Source: Brachybacterium sp. (GTDB taxonomy: Bacteria > Actinomycetota > Actinomycetes > Actinomycetales > Dermabacteraceae). From it: a stretch of DNA of 12,330 nucleotides. Within the stretch, counting starts at the first letter, position 1, and each line of letters opens with the position of its first letter. The notes beneath the pieces were generated by a model, which saw only the letters and a program-made list of their open reading frames with translations, was not told the DNA's origin and did not search any database. A program made the position numbers and the translations under genes. The stretch spans positions 1 to 12,330 of the forward strand of contig DAHVRS010000214.1 in assembly GCA_027322375.1 (NCBI GenBank), read 5' to 3'. Below are positions 1-12,280 of the stretch, piece after piece.

Positions 1-2951
1 GGCAGTCCGATCTGGTGCACGGTCCGCTCCCCCACCTGCAGCGGCACCATCCTCTCGGTGACCAGCACTCTCGCCTCGATCGCGTTGCGGGCGGAGATGA
101 TCGTGGCCCAGCCGTAGGGTTCGAGTCCGAGCTCCCCGGCGAGCTCCGGAGAGACCTCGCAGTACATCTCCGGCTGCAGCTCCGCGAGATAGGGCAGGAA
201 TCGGCTCATGCCCCCGGCGGTGTGGTGCTCGGTGATGCGGTAGGTGGTGAACACGTAGGGGTAGACGTCTCCGCCCGGCGCGGAGGCTCCCGGCGAGCTG
301 AGGTTGTCCTCGCTGCGGAAGGTGACCCGGGTGGGGTTGGACTGCTGGGTGTACAGCGGGTTCGGGATTCGTGACTCGGGGGCCTCGTAGTGGGTGGGCA
401 GCGGCCCGTCCACGAGTCCCGTCGGTGCGAACAGCCAGCCGCGGCCGTCGGGCTGCATGATGAACGCGTCGGTGCCGGCGAGGGCGGCGCCGCCGCCCTC
501 GGACGGGTCGCCCGGGTCCTCGGGACGCTTCGTGGCGGGGAAGTCGGGCACGTCCTTGCCGGTCCAGCGCCCGGCCTCCTCGTCCCACCACACCCACTTC
601 TTCCGCTCGCTCCAGGGCCTCCCCTGAGGGTCGGCGGAGGCGCGATTGTAGAGGATCCGGCGGTTCGCAGGCCAGGCCCAGCCCCACTCGGCGGCCGTCT
701 CGTCCTGCTCCTGGCCGGGGGTGCGGCGGCGGGCCTGGTTGATGCCGTCGGCGAAGACGCCGGCGTAGATCCAGCAGCCGCCGTCGGTGGTGCCGTCATC
801 GCGCATCTCGCCGAAGGAGGCGAGCGGCTGCCCGGCCTTCTCTCCGGTGAGGTGGCGGCCGTTGATCTCGGCGAGGACCGCCTCGGCGTGCGGGTCGCCG
901 TGCTCGTCCTCCGGATAGTCCCAGGTGAGGTCGAGGAGCGGCCTATCACGCGGGTCGGTGGAGCCTTCGAGCTTCTGACGGATCCGCTTGCCGAGCTGGT
1001 ACATGAACGCCAGATCGCTGCGGGCATCGCCCGGCGGGTCCACGGCCTTGTCGCGCCACTGCACCATGCGCTGCGTCTGAGTGAAGGAGCCGGCCTTCTC
1101 GGTGTGGTTCGCGGCGGGCAGGAAGAACATCTCCGTGCCGATCTCCTCCGGGGACAGCTCCCCGGACTCGATCTCGGGGCCGTCCTTCCAGAAGGTCGCG
1201 GACTCGATCATGTAGAAGTCCCGCACCACCATCCACTTCAGGTGGGTGAGCGCCAGGCGCTGCATGCGTCCGTTCGCGGAGCCGACGGCAGGGTTCTGGC
1301 CGAACAGGAAGTAGCCGTCCACCCCGCCCTCGAGCATCCGCGCGACGGTCTGGTAGGTGCCGTGCGCGCCGGTGAGACGGGGCAGGTGGTGGAAGCCCCA
1401 GTCGTTCTCCGCGGTGGCGTGCTCTCCCCACCAGGCCTTCAGCAGGTTGATCGTGTAAACGTCCGCGTCCGCCCAGAAGCCTTTCTGCTCCTTGCGCCCG
1501 ATCCCGCGGGTGAACTCCGCGAAGTCGTCCTGACCTGCCTTCGGCATCGGGAGATAGCCGGGCAGGATGTGGTAGAGCGTGGGGATGTCGGTGGAGCCCT
1601 GGATCGTGGCGTGGCCGCGCAGCGCCATGATGCCGCCACCGGGCCGGCCCATATTCCCCATGAGCAGCTGGAGCACGGAGGCGGTGCGGATCATCTGCGC
1701 GCCGCCCTGGTGCTGGGTCCAGCCCAGCGCGTAGGCGAACATCGTGGTCTTCTCCCGGCCTGATGCCTCGGCGATGGAGCTGGCGAGATACTCGAAGTCC
1801 TCCGGGGAGATGCCGCAGGTGGCCTGCACCATCTCGGGGGTGTAGCGGGCATAGTGGCGCCTGAGGATCTGGAAGACGGTGCGCGGGTGCTGCAGCGTCT
1901 CGTCCCGTTCGGGCAGGCCGCGCGCGAGGTCCTCCGCCTCCCCCTGGTAGGCCCAGGAGGAGGTGTCGTAGACGCCGGTCTCCGGGTCGTAGCCGGAGAA
2001 GAGGCCGTCCAGGTCCTCGGGGTCGCCGTACTCCTCGCTGATGAGAGTGGAGGCGTTGGTGTAGGCGCGGACGTACTCCTCGAAGTACAGCTCGTTCTCG
2101 AGCACATGCCGGATCACGCCGCCCAGCAGCACGATGTCGGTGCCGGCCCGGATGGGCAGGTGCCGGTCGGCGTTCGCGGAGGTGCGGGTGAAGCGAGGGT
2201 CGATGTGGATCACGCGCGCACCGCGGCGCCGCGCCTCGATCACCCACTGATAGGCGACCGGGTGCGCCTCCGCCATGTTCGAGCCCTCGATGATGATGAG
2301 GTCAGAGTTGGCGAAGTCCTGCACCGTATTCGTGGCACCGCCACGACCGAACGAGGCTCCCAGACCGGGAACCGTGGCGGAGTGTCATATGCGGGCCTGG
2401 TTCTCGATCTGGATCGCGCCCGCGGCGGTGAAGAACTTCTTGATCAGATAGTTCTCCTCGTTGTCGATGGTCGCGCCGCCGAGGCTGGCGATCCCCATCG
2501 TGCGCCGCAGCGGATGACCGTGCTCGTCCTCGTCCTCCCAGTGCTTGCGGCGGGCTTCGAGGAAGCGGTCCGCGATCATGTCCATCGCGGTGTCGAGATC
2601 GAGGTCCTCCCAGTCCGTCGCATAGGGGCGGCGGTAGCGAACCTTCGTCTCGCGGAGGTAGGAGTTGGCGAGCTGCTCGCTCGCGGCCCCCTTGGGGCAG
2701 AGCCGGCCGCGGGAGACCGGCGAGTTCGGGTTCCCCTCGATGTGGGAGACGCGCCCGTCCTCGGTGTAGATGCGCTGGGAGCAGCCGACGGCGCAGTACG
2801 GGCAGACGCTCTCGGCCATCCCGTCGGCCGAGTCGGTGCGCGAGCTGGTCGCGCGCGTGCGCGCCGAGGTGACCGCGGTGCCACGCCCGGTCCGGTCACC
2901 GCCGCGAAACTGCCGGAGGACCGGCCAGTCGAGAGGTGTGATGCGCGCCAT
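1..2951 (-). CDS. Selenocysteine-containing formate dehydrogenase, catalytic (alpha) subunit, 3'-truncated by window edge
   Basis: Molybdenum/tungsten bis-MGD formate dehydrogenase, which oxidises formate to CO2. The frame is open from the ATG at 2951 to the window edge (983 complete codons) except for one TGA at 2385-2387, codon 189. The residues around it read ENQARI-(TGA)-HSATVPGL, which aligns with the active-site NQAR-Sec-H of E. coli FdnG, so TGA is read as Sec189 followed by the conserved His190. The N-terminal [4Fe-4S] ligands are C50, C53, C57 and C85 (CPYC, VGC, LCPKG), with K87 in the usual place. GRGGATN, MAEAHPVAYQW and HIDPRFTRT after the Sec are typical molybdopterin-oxidoreductase segments. 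No Tat signal is present, so it is probably cytoplasmic. The start is chosen because the N-terminus MARITPLDWPVLRQ resembles actinobacterial homologues as I know them. The C-terminal molybdopterin-dinucleotide-binding part is begun, and roughly the last 5-10% is missing. No frameshift was found when I checked the codon register. Confidence 0.93.
2355..2387 (-). promoter_or_regulatory. Selenocysteine TGA codon plus bacterial SECIS hairpin
   Basis: The TGA is at 2387-2385 (minus strand). After an 11-nt spacer, GGUUCCC (2373-2367) pairs with GGGAGCC (2361-2355) over 7 positions, one of them a U-G wobble, closing the apical loop GGUCU (2366-2362). From memory, E. coli fdhF has the same GGUCU loop 18 nt after its UGA, and the distance here is also 18 nt. 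The SelB-Sec-tRNA complex binds such loops to deliver selenocysteine. The U that is bulged in E. coli (three nt before the loop) is present here but faces an A, so it may be paired. The hairpin lies within coding sequence, as is normal for bacterial SECIS elements. Confidence 0.85.
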
Positions 2952-3041: not shown

Positions 3042-3413
3042 TCAGTCGTCGGCGGGCTGCTCGCCCGACTGCTCAGCGACGGCACCGGTATCGCGGATCC
3101 GTTCGTGGTGGCGGATCACCTCGGTGACGATGAAGCGCATGAACGCCTCCGCGAAGGTGGGGTCCAGTCCGGCGTCATCCGCGAGGGAGCGCAGGCGCGC
3201 GACCTGCTGAGCCTCGCGGTCAGGGTCTGCGGGTGGCAGTCCGTGCTCGGCCTTCAGCACGCCCACCCGCTGGGTGTGAGCGAAGCGCTCGGCGAGCAGG
3301 TGCACGAGGGCCGCGTCGATGTTGTCGATGCTGCGCCGCTCCTCGGCGAGGAGGACGCGGGCACGCTGGACCGCCTCCTCGCGGGATGCGGCCGCGGAAT
3401 CCGGTGCGCTCAT
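3042..3413 (-). CDS. Chorismate mutase, AroQ-class (type II) domain
   Basis: Small all-helical enzyme (123 aa) converting chorismate to prephenate, the branch point towards Phe and Tyr. The core (about residues 20-106) has the AroQ pattern: R26/R27 on helix 1, R43 in LLAERF, K54 in VGVLKAEHG and D65-R66-E67 in PDREAQQ, matching active-site positions R11, R28, K39, D48 and E52 of the E. coli enzyme. The position equivalent to Gln88 falls in EVIRHHERI and appears not to be Gln. The length is normal for a monofunctional enzyme. A short polar tail ([13 protein letters not shown]) follows the domain. The ATG overlaps the clpX stop (ATGA, 3410-3413), so it is probably co-transcribed and translationally coupled with clpX. 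A 90-nt gap separates it from the formate dehydrogenase gene. There is no signal peptide, unlike secreted *AroQ forms. Confidence 0.85.
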
Positions 3414-4753
3414 GCGCTCTGCTCCTGGCGGCCGGTGCCCTCGGCACGGTCCGCGTCCTTGCCGGTGAGCATGAGCGGGGCACGGCCCTCGATGACCACG
3501 CCCTCGGTGATGACCACCTTGACGACGTCATCGCGGGAGGGGACCTCGAACATCACCGGCTGCAGCGCCTCCTCGAGGATCGCGCGCAGGCCGCGCGCAC
3601 CGGTCTCCCGCTCGATCGCGCGCTCGGCGATCGCCTCGAGGGCGCTGCGCTCGAAGTCGAGCTCCACGCCGTCCAGCGCGAACATCTTCTGATACTGCTT
3701 GACGAGCGCGTTGCGGGGCTCGGTGAGGATCGTGATGAGCGCGTCGCGGTCCAGGTCGGAGACGCTCGTGATGACCGGGAGGCGGCCGATGAACTCGGGG
3801 ATCAGGCCGAACTTCAGCAGGTCCTCGGGCAGGAGCTTGCCGTAGAGCTCCTGCTGCTCGAGCGGGGAGTGCAGCTCGGAGCCGAAGCCGATGCCGCGCT
3901 TGCCGATCCGCGAGCCGATGATGTCCTCGATGCCGGCGAAGGCGCCTGCAACGATGAACAGCACGTTCGTGGTGTCGATCTGGATGAACTCCTGGTGCGG
4001 ATGCTTGCGCCCGCCCTGGGGCGGCACCGCCGCGACCGTGCCCTCGAGGATCTTCAGCAGCGCCTGCTGCACGCCCTCGCCGGAGACGTCACGGGTGATC
4101 GAGGGGTTCTCGGCCTTGCGACCGATCTTGTCCACCTCGTCGATGTAGATGATGCCGCGCTCGGCCTTCTTGACGTCGTAGTCCGCGGCCTGCAGCAGCT
4201 TCAGCAGGATGTTCTCGACGTCCTCGCCCACGTAGCCGGCCTCGGTCAGCGCAGTCGCGTCCGCCATCGCGAAGGGCACGTCGAGCATGCGCGCGAGGGT
4301 CTGGGCGAGGTAGGTCTTGCCGCAGCCGGTGGGGCCCACCAGCATGACGTTGGACTTCGCGACCTCGACCTCGTCGGGCTTCTCCGCGTCCGCCTCCTCG
4401 GCGAGCGCGGCGGCGGCGCTGCGCGCGGGCGAGGCGGAGTCCTCGGCGTCCTGCGCGCGCAGGCGCTTGTAGTGGTTGTAGACGGCGACCGACAGTGCGC
4501 GCTTGGCGGGATCCTGGCCGATCACGTACTCGCCCAGGAACCCGAAGATCTCCTGCGGGGTGGGCAGGGCCGTCTGCTCCTCGGCGGCGGGCTGGGCGGC
4601 CTGGATCTCCTCGGCGATGATCTCGTTGCACAGCTCGATGCACTCTTCGCAGATGTACACCCCCGGGCCCGAGATCAGGCGCTCGACCTGCTTCTGCGAT
4701 TTGCCGCAGAAGGAGCACTTGAAAACGTCACCGTTCTCGCTCGTCCGTGCCAC
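3410..4753 (-). CDS. clpX: ATP-dependent Clp protease ATP-binding subunit ClpX
   Basis: AAA+ unfoldase that feeds tagged or misfolded proteins into the ClpP chamber (447 aa, cytoplasmic). The N-terminal zinc-binding domain has C13, C16, C35 and C38. Other features are Walker A GPTGCGKT (140-147), pore loop GYVG (173-176), Walker [11 protein letters not shown] (201-210), RKH loop (249-251), the IGFG ClpP-docking loop (288-291) and sensor-2 GARGLR (385-390). All key ClpX elements are intact. The start is GTG at 4753, preceded by a GGAGGAGGAG purine run. Residues about 101-131 form an Ala/Glu/Asp-rich insertion before the AAA+ core, making the protein some 20 aa longer than E. coli ClpX (424 aa). 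It is downstream of clpP2 on the same strand, with a 180-nt gap containing a palindrome. Confidence 0.97.
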
Positions 4754-7923: not shown

Positions 7924-9489
7924 TCACTCGGCCTTCTCGGCCTCGTCCTTGTCCGCCGCCTTCTTCGCGGGCGCCTTCTTCGCGGGCGCCTTCTTCGCGG
8001 GCGCCTTCTTGGCCGGAGCCTTCTTGGCGGGCGCCTTCTTCGCGGGGGCCTTCTCCTCGGCCTCGGCGTCGTCGGCCGCAGCGGCCTCGTCAGCCTTCGC
8101 AGCCAGCTTCTTGACCGGGGCCTTCTTCGCCGGAGCCTTCTTCGCCGGAGCCTTCTTGGCGGGCTTCTCCTCCGCCTTCTCGGACTCCTCGGCACCCTCG
8201 GCGTCAGCAGCCTCGTCCTCGGCATTCAGGCCCAGGTCCAGGACGTCGCCCGCAGCGTTCTTCACGGTGACCTCGGCGAGGACCACGTCGAGCGCCTTGG
8301 AGCGCTGGACCTCGGCGAAGATCTGCTCGAGCTGGCCGGACTGGGCGAGCATCTGCAGCAGCTGGTTCGGCTCGATGCCGTACTGCTGGGAGAGCTGGGT
8401 CATGTAGTGCATGAGGTCGGCCTGGTCGACCTGGACCTCCCGGGACCCATTGATCTCGTCGAGCAGGAACTGCGAGCGAACGGCCTTCTCGGTGTCCTCG
8501 CGGATCTCCTCGCCGTGCGGGTCGCCCGGCTCCTTGCCCTCGTTCTCGAGGTGGGAGGTGATCTCGTCCTCGACGAGCTGCTCGGGGACGGGGATCTCGA
8601 GCTCCTCGAGGAGCTTCTCGAGGAGGGCGTTGCGGGCCAGGGCCACGCGGTTGCCCTCGGCGTCCTTCTCGGCCTGCGCCTTGAGGTCAGCCTTGAGCTC
8701 CTCGATGGTGTCGAACTCGGAGGCCATCTCGGCGAACTCGTCGTCGGCCTCGGGCAGCTCGCGCACCTTGACGGACTGCGCGGTGACCTTGACCTGCGCC
8801 TCTTCGCCCGCGCGGTCGCCACCGGCGAGCTTCGAGACGAAGGTGGTGGTCTCCTCGGCGGAGAGGCCGGTGAGCGCCTCGTCGAGGCCCTCGAGCATGT
8901 TGCCCTCGCCGATGCGGTAGGAGACGCCCTCGACGGACTCGATCTCCTCGTCGTCGATGGTCGCGGTCATATCGAGGGAGACGAAGTCGCCGTCCTCGGC
9001 CGGGCGGTCCACGCCCACGAGGGTGCCGAAGCGCTCGCGGAGCTCGTCCAGGCGCACCGAGACGGCGTCCTCGTCGACGGTGGGCTCCTCGATCTCGACC
9101 TCGTAGGAGGCGAAGTCGGGCAGGGTGATCTCGGGGCGGATGTCCTGCTCGACGGTGAAGACGAGGTTGCCCTCGTCCTTGCCGTCCAGGCCAGGGATCT
9201 CGGAGACCTCGACCTCGGGGCGACCCACGGGCTTCAGCTCCGCCTCGGCGGCGGCCTGCTGGTAGAAGTCGGGCAGGGAGTCGTTGACGGCCTCCTGCAG
9301 GATCGCCGGGCGGCCGAAGCGCTGCTCGACGAGCTTGGAGGGGACCTTGCCCTTGCGGAAGCCGGGGATCTGCACCTGATCGGCGATCTTCTTGGTGGCG
9401 GCCTCGACGGCGGGCTTGAGCTCGTCGAAGGGCACCTCGACGGTGAGCTTCACCCGGGTGGGGCTGAGCTTCTCGGACTCGGTCTTCAC
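7924..9489 (-). CDS. tig: Trigger factor (ribosome-associated chaperone / prolyl isomerase) with H1-like tail
   Basis: Ribosome-docking chaperone that shields nascent chains and isomerises prolyl bonds, 521 aa. The N-terminal domain carries the ribosome-binding signature GFRKGKVP (43-50). The FKBP-type PPIase domain covers about 162-247 (AEDGDFVSLDMTA to GLDEALTGLS). The helical C-terminal chaperone domain covers about 248-423. Residues 424-521 are an added tail: an acidic stretch, then two clusters of (A)PAKK repeats (about four and six units) separated by an acidic Ala-rich spacer, ending KDEAEKAE. Trigger factors are usually about 430-470 aa, so the tail is extra. The start is GTG at 9489, with GGGAG 9 nt upstream (9499-9503). 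tRNA-Pro lies 86 nt upstream on the same strand. The gene is separated from clpP1 by the divergent NlpC/P60 gene. Confidence 0.96.
   Translation of the reverse strand: MKTESEKLSPTRVKLTVEVPFDELKPAVEAATKKIADQVQIPGFRKGKVPSKLVEQRFGRPAILQEAVNDSLPDFYQQAAAEAELKPVGRPEVEVSEIPGLDGKDEGNLVFTVEQDIRPEITLPDFASYEVEIEEPTVDEDAVSVRLDELRERFGTLVGVDRPAEDGDFVSLDMTATIDDEEIESVEGVSYRIGEGNMLEGLDEALTGLSAEETTTFVSKLAGGDRAGEEAQVKVTAQSVKVRELPEADDEFAEMASEFDTIEELKADLKAQAEKDAEGNRVALARNALLEKLLEELEIPVPEQLVEDEITSHLENEGKEPGDPHGEEIREDTEKAVRSQFLLDEINGSREVQVDQADLMHYMTQLSQQYGIEPNQLLQMLAQSGQLEQIFAEVQRSKALDVVLAEVTVKNAAGDVLDLGLNAEDEAADAEGAEESEKAEEKPAKKAPAKKAPAKKAPVKKLAAKADEAAAADDAEAEEKAPAKKAPAKKAPAKKAPAKKAPAKKAPAKKAADKDEAEKAE
7958..8047 (-). 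repeat. Six 15-bp tandem repeats coding the APAKK tail of trigger factor
   Basis: The plus-strand unit GCCTTCTTCGCGGGC occurs six times in a row, with silent-type changes in units 4-6. Each unit encodes one AKKAP pentapeptide on the minus strand. A related, shorter cluster lies at 8105-8164 (four units, one diverged, encoding PVKK). A multiple of 3 keeps any copy-number change in frame. Confidence 0.92.
8105..8164 (-). repeat. Second cluster of 15-bp AKKAP-coding repeats in tig
   Basis: Four 15-bp units. Two are identical (8120-8134 and 8135-8149), and the unit at 8105-8119 has diverged to encode VKK. The cluster is separated from the 3' one by codons for an Ala/Asp/Glu spacer. Confidence 0.8.
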
Positions 9490-10546: not shown

Positions 10547-10675
10547 CCGGGAAGTATCCGCGATCCGGTCCCGTCAGTGCCAGGCCCGTCGTGGACGGAC
10601 CGCCGTGGCCTGCCCGTCTGCCGTCGTGTCCGATTCCCGCTGGTGCCGCAGGCCCGGACGCGGTTCACTGGACTC

Positions 10676-12280
10676 ATGCAGTCGATGACTGATGATGAGC
10701 GCTACGCCGCGATCCGTGCCCGGGACGCGCGCTTCGACGGCATGTTCTTCACCTGTGTGCGCTCCACCGGGATCTTCTGCCGTCCCTCCTGCCCGGCGCG
10801 CACCCCCTCCCGGGGCGGGGTCGAGTTCGTGCCCTCGGCCGCGGCGGCGGTCGCCGCGGGCTTCCGTGCCTGCAAGCGCTGCGGGCCGACGGCCCCGCCG
10901 GGCAGCCCCGACGCTGATCCTGCGGGCTCTCTCGCGGGGCGGGCGCTGCGCCTGCTCGAGGCCGGGGCGCTCGACGGGGAGGGGACGGTTCCCGCGCTCG
11001 CAGCGCGCCTGGCGGTCTCCGAGCGGACGCTGCACCGGGCGCTCGTGGACCGCACCGGCGCAGGCGCTCTCGCCCATGCCCGGATCCTCCGCGCCCGTCG
11101 CGCGCATGAGCTGGTCACCGGCACGGATCTGCCGCTGGCACGGATCGCGCACGCTGCTGGCTTCGGCTCCGAGCGCCAGTTCCATGACACGTTCTCCACG
11201 ATCTTCGGGCACGCCCCCTCGGTGGTGCGGGAGCGCCAGCGCTCCACCCGACACAGCGCATCCGACGGGCCCAGCGCCGCCGACGGGCCCCGGACCCACG
11301 GGCAGTCTGGCGCGGTGGTCACCGCGCGTCTCGCCCTGCGCGGCCCCTTCGACGGGGCGGGCCTCGCGGACTGGTTCGCCCATCGCGCCGTCCCCGGCGT
11401 CGAGGAGCTCGACGGCCTCGTGTGGACGAGGGCCCTGCGCCTCCCGCACGGCCCGGCCGTGGTGCGCGTGGATCTTTCCGCTCCCGCCCCGCTCACCGCC
11501 CGCCTCGCCCTCGCGGATCTGCGCGACTATGCCGCGGCGATCGCGACCGTGCGCCACCTGCTGGATCTCGACGCGGACCCCGTCGGCATCGATACGGGGC
11601 TCCGCGCCGCACTGCCTGCGTTCGCCGCGCTGGTCGCGGCGCGGCCCGGGGTGCGCCTGCCGGGCGCGCCGAGCCCGCGAGAGGCGCTGCTGTGGGCGAT
11701 CACCGGTCAGCAGATCACCGCCTCCCAGGCCGCCGAGCAGATCACACGCGCCACCGACCTGCTCGCTGAGGAGCTGCCGGGCGCCCTGCGCACGGGCGGC
11801 GTGCACCGACTGCCCGTGGACCCCGTCCGCGCCGCCGAGCGCGCCGAGGAGTGGTTCCGCGGCCCCGGTGCCCGGCGCCGCACCCTCACCACCGCCGTCC
11901 CCGCCCCGGGACTGGAGGCGGAGGCGGGCCCGTCGAACCTCCGCGAACGGTTGCTCGCCCTGCATGGGGTGGGGCCCTGGACCGCGGACTACGTGCTGCT
12001 GCGCGGTGCGCGGGCGGTCGATGTCGCCCCGGCGCGGGATGCCGCGCTGCTCACCGCTGCGAAGGACCTCGGCCTCGCCCAGGACCACGCCGAGCTCACC
12101 GCCGCGCTGCGCAGCGCCTCCCCGTGGTGCTCCTACGCCTGCTTGCACCTGTGGCACCACGCCGCCGCGCTCCGCCGCGGCGCGTCCTCCCTCGGCACGA
12201 GCACCGCCATCACGCATTCGCCTACTTCGCACTCGCCCGCTTCTCACTCCCCCGCCCCTGTGGAAGGACCCACCTCATGA
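10676..12280 (+). CDS. Ada-type sensor / AraC regulator fused to AlkA DNA-3-methyladenine glycosylase
   Basis: Alkylation-repair protein of 534 aa. Residues 1-75 are an Ada metal-binding domain with zinc ligands C35, C39, C66 and C69 (TGIFCRPSCPAR, ACKRC). C35 corresponds to the methylphosphotriester-accepting Cys38 of E. coli Ada. An AraC-type HTH covers about 86-188 (ERTLHRALVDRTG, IAHAAGFGSERQFH). An AlkA N-terminal domain covers about 213-325. An HhH-GPD glycosylase covers about 330-500, with hairpin LALHGVGPWTADYVLLRG (427-444) and catalytic Asp455 aligning with E. coli AlkA Asp238. It removes alkylated bases and probably senses methylation damage to activate its own operon. The ATG at 10676 (or 10685) starts right at the conserved DDERYAAI segment, but no Shine-Dalgarno sequence is visible. 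The tail 502-534 is low-complexity (HSP repeats). The stop overlaps the next start by ATGA. Confidence 0.93.
   Translation: MQSMTDDERYAAIRARDARFDGMFFTCVRSTGIFCRPSCPARTPSRGGVEFVPSAAAAVAAGFRACKRCGPTAPPGSPDADPAGSLAGRALRLLEAGALDGEGTVPALAARLAVSERTLHRALVDRTGAGALAHARILRARRAHELVTGTDLPLARIAHAAGFGSERQFHDTFSTIFGHAPSVVRERQRSTRHSASDGPSAADGPRTHGQSGAVVTARLALRGPFDGAGLADWFAHRAVPGVEELDGLVWTRALRLPHGPAVVRVDLSAPAPLTARLALADLRDYAAAIATVRHLLDLDADPVGIDTGLRAALPAFAALVAARPGVRLPGAPSPREALLWAITGQQITASQAAEQITRATDLLAEELPGALRTGGVHRLPVDPVRAAERAEEWFRGPGARRRTLTTAVPAPGLEAEAGPSNLRERLLALHGVGPWTADYVLLRGARAVDVAPARDAALLTAAKDLGLAQDHAELTAALRSASPWCSYACLHLWHHAAALRRGASSLGTSTAITHSPTSHSPASHSPAPVEGPTS
12215..12259 (+). repeat. Three 15-bp imperfect repeats at the Ada-AlkA C-terminus
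   Basis: Three in-frame units encode HSPTS, HSPAS and HSPAP (residues 514-528). They follow the end of the glycosylase fold and have no counterpart in the AlkA domain. This is probably a disordered tail. Confidence 0.8.

Follow-up and report, generated by a model that had tools for sequence, protein, structure and literature searches.

The window, a 12,330-nucleotide stretch of Brachybacterium sp. DNA, almost certainly carries a single selenoprotein gene, fdhA, which encodes the alpha subunit of a membrane-associated formate dehydrogenase and in which UGA codon 189 would be read as selenocysteine (Sec). We base this reading on the codon itself, the reading frame, the protein family, a SECIS-like structure, four sel genes and the co-distribution of tRNA-Sec with the gene.

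One reading frame around an in-frame TGA

The fdhA gene lies at positions 3..2951 on the minus strand. From its probable start codon, an ATG at 2949..2951 (minus strand; tblastn matches start at residue 1 in most Brachybacterium loci), a 188-codon open reading frame (ORF) runs from 2951 to a TGA at 2387-2385, and the frame then stays open up to position 3, where the contig stops. When this TGA (2385..2387, minus strand) is taken as a residue, the gene comprises 983 codons and its product 983 amino acids, with one recoded codon (U189) and no further stop up to the contig end. Because the window is one whole contig (C493, from an assembly of 567 contigs that is 74% complete) and ends inside the gene, the 3' end of fdhA is lost; in Brachybacterium sp. 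EE-P12 (L016) the same frame extends to 1098 codons. An earlier note on this DNA had counted nearly 800 more codons past the TGA: the frame does stay open, but the protein is longer, with the contig ending inside its gene.

Related fdhA loci were found 26 times in genome contigs, and 25 of them cover the site of codon 189 (L037 starts past it and was therefore excluded from the codon count). TGA stands at this site in 24 and TAG in one, from Blastococcus sp. TF02A-30 (L028), and so TGA 189 is not a product of chance. The 26 loci include nine from Brachybacterium and one from Candidatus Brachybacterium (81-88% identity) and one from an Actinomycetales MAG (83%), which mark the host as Brachybacterium-like; the other 15 come from Dermabacter, Kytococcus, Marihabitans, Corynebacterium, Frankiales, Blastococcus, Rubrobacter, Sphaerobacter, Ktedonobacteria, a Burkholderiales MAG and five Rokubacteria. 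Six Brachybacterium loci among the 26 were compared codon by codon, and each contains exactly one stop, the TGA at 189, with an excess of differences at third codon positions on both sides of it. Between the window and L016, for example, there are 18, 15 and 50 differences at codon positions 1, 2 and 3 over the upstream 188 codons and 65, 42 and 190 over the downstream 794 codons. The sequence therefore codes in a single frame before and after the TGA.

The competing reading, that the TGA is a nonsense mutation or sequencing error (leaving a pseudogene) or that two separate ORFs are translated, draws on a mechanical ORF list, which gives one ORF of 188 aa and another of 774 aa that starts with a GTG at 2324, and on the database entries of near relatives, which start at that place; we nevertheless consider it very improbable. 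A pseudogene and two separate ORFs were both rejected on the TGA shared by 24 of 25 relatives, the third-position excess on both sides with no other stop in six relatives, the presence of all sel genes in the assembly and the conservation of a stem-loop past the TGA (the last two described below). The sequence that separates the TGA from the GTG at 2324 is likewise conserved. The TGA count, the sel genes and the stem-loop thus support the view, already taken in the earlier note, that this is one selenoprotein rather than a broken gene or two ORFs.

Protein family and residue 189

The fdhA product matches the NCBIfam model NF041513 (formate_DH_Act) with 1725 bits (cut-off 1400) on both sides of the TGA, at model positions 4-338 and 371-1007 of 1067, bearing out the earlier claim that family similarity continues past the codon. 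No difference from this family was seen; the last 60 positions of the model fall past the contig end, and the window's assembly contains one match to the family. TIGR01553 is also matched (916 bits, cut-off 814), as are the Pfam Fe4S4, molybdopterin and dinucleotide-binding domains (PF04879, PF00384 and PF01568, all above their cut-offs), and TIGR01591 scores below its cut-off. On these matches, the product is an actinobacterial-type formate dehydrogenase alpha subunit that is predicted to oxidize formate. Its alignment with the Escherichia coli FDH-N alpha subunit FdnG (1kqf) and a tungsten formate dehydrogenase (1h0h) begins at residue 46 or 47 and runs up to the contig end; it differs from them in that its N-terminus, inspected by eye, shows no evident twin-arginine signal. 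Residue 189 aligns with the non-standard residue X of both 1h0h_A and 1kqf_A, which places the in-frame TGA at the catalytic Sec/Cys position.

In a protein search that scored 7997 candidates under length limits, of which the best 120 were listed, all 104 homologues that cover the column of residue 189 have Cys there, in line with the earlier expectation of Sec or Cys at this position, with the proviso that the tool may write U as C. For this reason, we count as Cys at the DNA level only one gene, the TGC-bearing fdhA of genome G081. The remaining 16 of the best 120, which have the highest identity (74-89%), begin past the TGA at query residues 197-226 and are 871-904 aa long; such N-terminally short entries include the formate dehydrogenases of Brachybacterium ginsengisoli and B. 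sacelli. Automatic annotation had been expected to truncate the protein at 188 aa; the closest relatives' listed entries instead lack the part before the TGA, and stubs of 188 aa could not appear in this search because of its length limits.

A Cys at the site in homologues would also suit a UGA read as Cys or Trp through a suppressor tRNA or an altered code. We rejected this alternative, which is more improbable still than a pseudogene or two ORFs, since the assembly encodes tRNA-Sec (UCA), SelA, SelB and SelD and a conserved SECIS-like element follows the codon; the TGC-bearing genome, without a tRNA-Sec match, also argues against it.

A SECIS-like stem-loop past the codon

Folding, pair counts and published rules place the upper stem-loop of a bacterial SECIS element at 2355..2373 on the minus strand (GGUUCCC-GGUCU-GGGAGCC), with arms at 2373-2367 and 2361-2355 and the loop GGUCU at 2366-2362. 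The stem-loop starts 11 nt and its loop 18 nt past the TGA. Among the rules given in PMC13188914 for bacterial SECIS elements are a loop of 3-9 nt, a stem of 4-16 bp, a G within the first two loop positions, a UGA-to-loop distance of 16-37 nt and an energy of at most -7.5 kcal/mol; the window's structure agrees with these (loop 5 nt, stem 7 bp, GG, 18 nt from the UGA), and the 48-nt stretch that contains it folds with -18.1 kcal/mol. This stability does not exceed that of shuffled sequences (z -0.45, with 67 of 200 shuffles as good), and fold stability alone is no help to the case for a SECIS element.

Pair counts were of help. They were made on an alignment (A1) of the window and 25 loci, with L037 left out, giving 24 distinct rows. 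Stem cells are paired in 94.6% of cases across the 24 distinct sequences, as against 86.4% in shuffled alignments and at most 63.7% when the stem is slid, and the covariation score is 0.244, as against 0.104 in shuffles (none of 500 reached it) and at most 0.137 when slid. This signal comes chiefly from columns 39/51, which are third codon positions (of Val and Gly, respectively) and are paired in 24/24 sequences through six standard pair types (UA 12, CG 7, GU 2, AU 1, GC 1 and UG 1). One of the seven stem pairs has changes on both sides, a number that 461 of 500 shuffles reach; three pairs are invariant, the outermost fails in 7/24 sequences and the third in 2/24. The stem-loop after the TGA is thus a SECIS-like element with compensatory changes between two synonymous sites.

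Selenocysteine machinery in the assembly and at related loci

The earlier note had predicted that the host encodes selA, selB, selD and tRNA-Sec, and all four were found above their cut-offs on contig C346 (7099 bases) of the same assembly: tRNA-Sec with anticodon UCA at 3334-3424 (78.4 bits, gathering score 47), selA (408 bits, cut-off 267.9), selD (379 bits, cut-off 125) and selB, which is barely above its threshold (245.4 bits, cut-off 242.25) and whose product contains the winged-helix and beta-barrel domains of SelB. Genes for a 4Fe-4S protein and for an NrfD-family protein adjoin the sel genes. Because the 4Fe-4S protein scores 165 with the FDH-beta model TIGR01582, under the cut-off of 335, we name it FdhB by its domains and place.

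Contigs C493 and C346 are very probably neighbours, judging from two observations: the first bases of C346 hold one frame to a stop whose ending resembles that of Brachybacterium proteins, and the window end and the C346 start map ~255 bases apart on four relatives. When the two contig ends were searched for an exact overlap of 16-150 bases, none was found. Elsewhere in the window, a trigger factor gene (7924-9489, minus strand) encodes a long Lys/Ala/Pro-rich tail (residues ~435-517) that resembles histone H1-like proteins and scores below the cut-offs of those families, and a single protein (10577-12280, plus strand) combines an Ada metal-binding, an AraC-type HTH and an AlkA N-terminal domain and probably acts in alkylation repair.

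At 12 of the 26 related loci, the genes that come after fdhA are fdhB, nrfD, selD, tRNA-Sec, selA and selB, with tRNA-Sec 3.4-5.2 kb past the end of the matched fdhA. The other 14 have no selD, selA or selB within the stretch examined. ARAGORN detected no tRNA-Sec within 14 of the 26 loci, nor did Rfam in the six of those 14 on which it was run (a seventh locus given to Rfam, L025, had an ARAGORN tRNA-Sec match). These ARAGORN-negative loci were considered as counter-evidence and rejected as such: for eight of the 14 (all except L020, L021, L033, L036, L037 and L040) a genome-wide search found tRNA-Sec above cut-off in 8/8, and in those eight genomes it therefore lies outside the locus. A scripted tRNA pattern run over L045-L052 found a tRNA in one of the eight.

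The TAG at the Sec position of the Blastococcus sp. TF02A-30 fdhA lies at L028 10538-10540, and the tRNA-Sec of this organism has the anticodon CUA (L050 1592-1501, Rfam alignment). UAG as a Sec codon is reported for Geodermatophilaceae in PMC5330540.

Distribution in the genus and order

In a genus set of 38 genomes, fdhA was above cut-off in 37, with TGA in the matched frame in 37/37, and tRNA-Sec in 35, all of them among the 37 with fdhA. Neither was above cut-off in G007. Two genomes, G027 and G032 (88% and 84% complete, in 750 and 410 contigs), have fdhA without tRNA-Sec above cut-off. The order survey covered 149 genomes, including the window's genome and ten others of its genus, with thresholds of E at most 1e-150 for fdhA and at most 1e-10 for tRNA-Sec. 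It found fdhA in 51, tRNA-Sec in 52, both in 50 and neither in 96; all 50 genomes with TGA in the fdhA match have tRNA-Sec. In both searches TGA was scored anywhere in the fdhA match rather than position by position per genome.

Several individual genomes of these sets are of note in their own right. G081 (L044), from the same order, has a stop-free fdhA with TGC at the site and no tRNA-Sec match, and by eye its gene has no matching SECIS 3' arm at the corresponding place. G041 and G131 have tRNA-Sec above cut-off and did not match this fdhA family at E 1e-150; they may encode a different selenoprotein. In G003, a member of the genus (contig C1, 2854725-2857843), fdhA has a second TGA and a frame change near model position 940, beside an intact tRNA-Sec, and is either a decaying gene or a sequencing error.

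Discussion

The insertion of Sec at residue 189, the metal, the electron route and the in vivo direction of the reaction are features that we infer from sequence. In the proposed mechanism, SelD and SelA would make Sec-tRNA-Sec with the anticodon UCA, and SelB would carry it to the ribosome and bind the stem-loop just past the UGA, so that codon 189 would specify Sec and not a stop. Sec 189 would then ligate the metal of the pterin cofactor, Mo or W, and participate in the oxidation of formate to CO2, with electrons predicted to pass through the FdhB-like 4Fe-4S subunit to the NrfD-like membrane subunit and from there probably to the quinone pool.

Comparable systems have been described. The published selenol formate dehydrogenase region of Corynebacterium aurimucosum ATCC 700975 holds a formate dehydrogenase gene that contains an internal UGA and lies in a cluster with genes for an iron-sulphur subunit, selD, selA, selB and tRNA-Sec (PMC2830990). 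This organism belongs to another genus and is likened here by its published description; our sequence comparison was with another Corynebacterium, L031, which carries the same cluster and shows 63% identity over the protein. Removal of formic acid by Actinomycetospora chiangmaiensis DSM 45062 is reported to be selenite-dependent, and its FdhA of ~1,080 aa has a predicted Sec and SECIS and lies beside fdhB, fdhC, selA and selB (PMC7176365). It differs in having three formate dehydrogenase systems, with selD apart from the FDH1 cluster, whereas the window's assembly has one family match. The formate dehydrogenase alpha subunit and SelD are described as the most widespread bacterial selenoproteins (PMC5029168), and mis-annotation of selenoprotein genes as a known problem (PMC13188914). 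Among open-licence publications on Brachybacterium and selenocysteine, titles and the starts of abstracts mention nothing on this enzyme.

The fdhA selenoprotein is a clear but ordinary case of a kind of enzyme already known in related bacteria, and it raises no new kind of question. For the nearest relatives (16 of the best 120 of 7997 candidates, those of highest identity), databases store the gene short of its N-terminus and catalytic residue, and the present reading corrects this. According to PMC5029168, sel genes and fdhA often lie close together or share an operon, both in donors of the trait and in recipients, and transfer of sel genes with fdhA is already in print there. We tentatively suggest, as a possibility somewhat short of probable, that fdhA-fdhB-nrfD and selD-selC-selA-selB form a self-contained cassette, so that the selenoprotein is kept or lost together with its decoder and the meaning of the codon can drift, as with TAG and CUA in Blastococcus. 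The Sec trait itself was found in 35 of the 38 genus genomes and in 52 of the 149 genomes sampled from the order, and it is kept together with a TGA-bearing fdhA.
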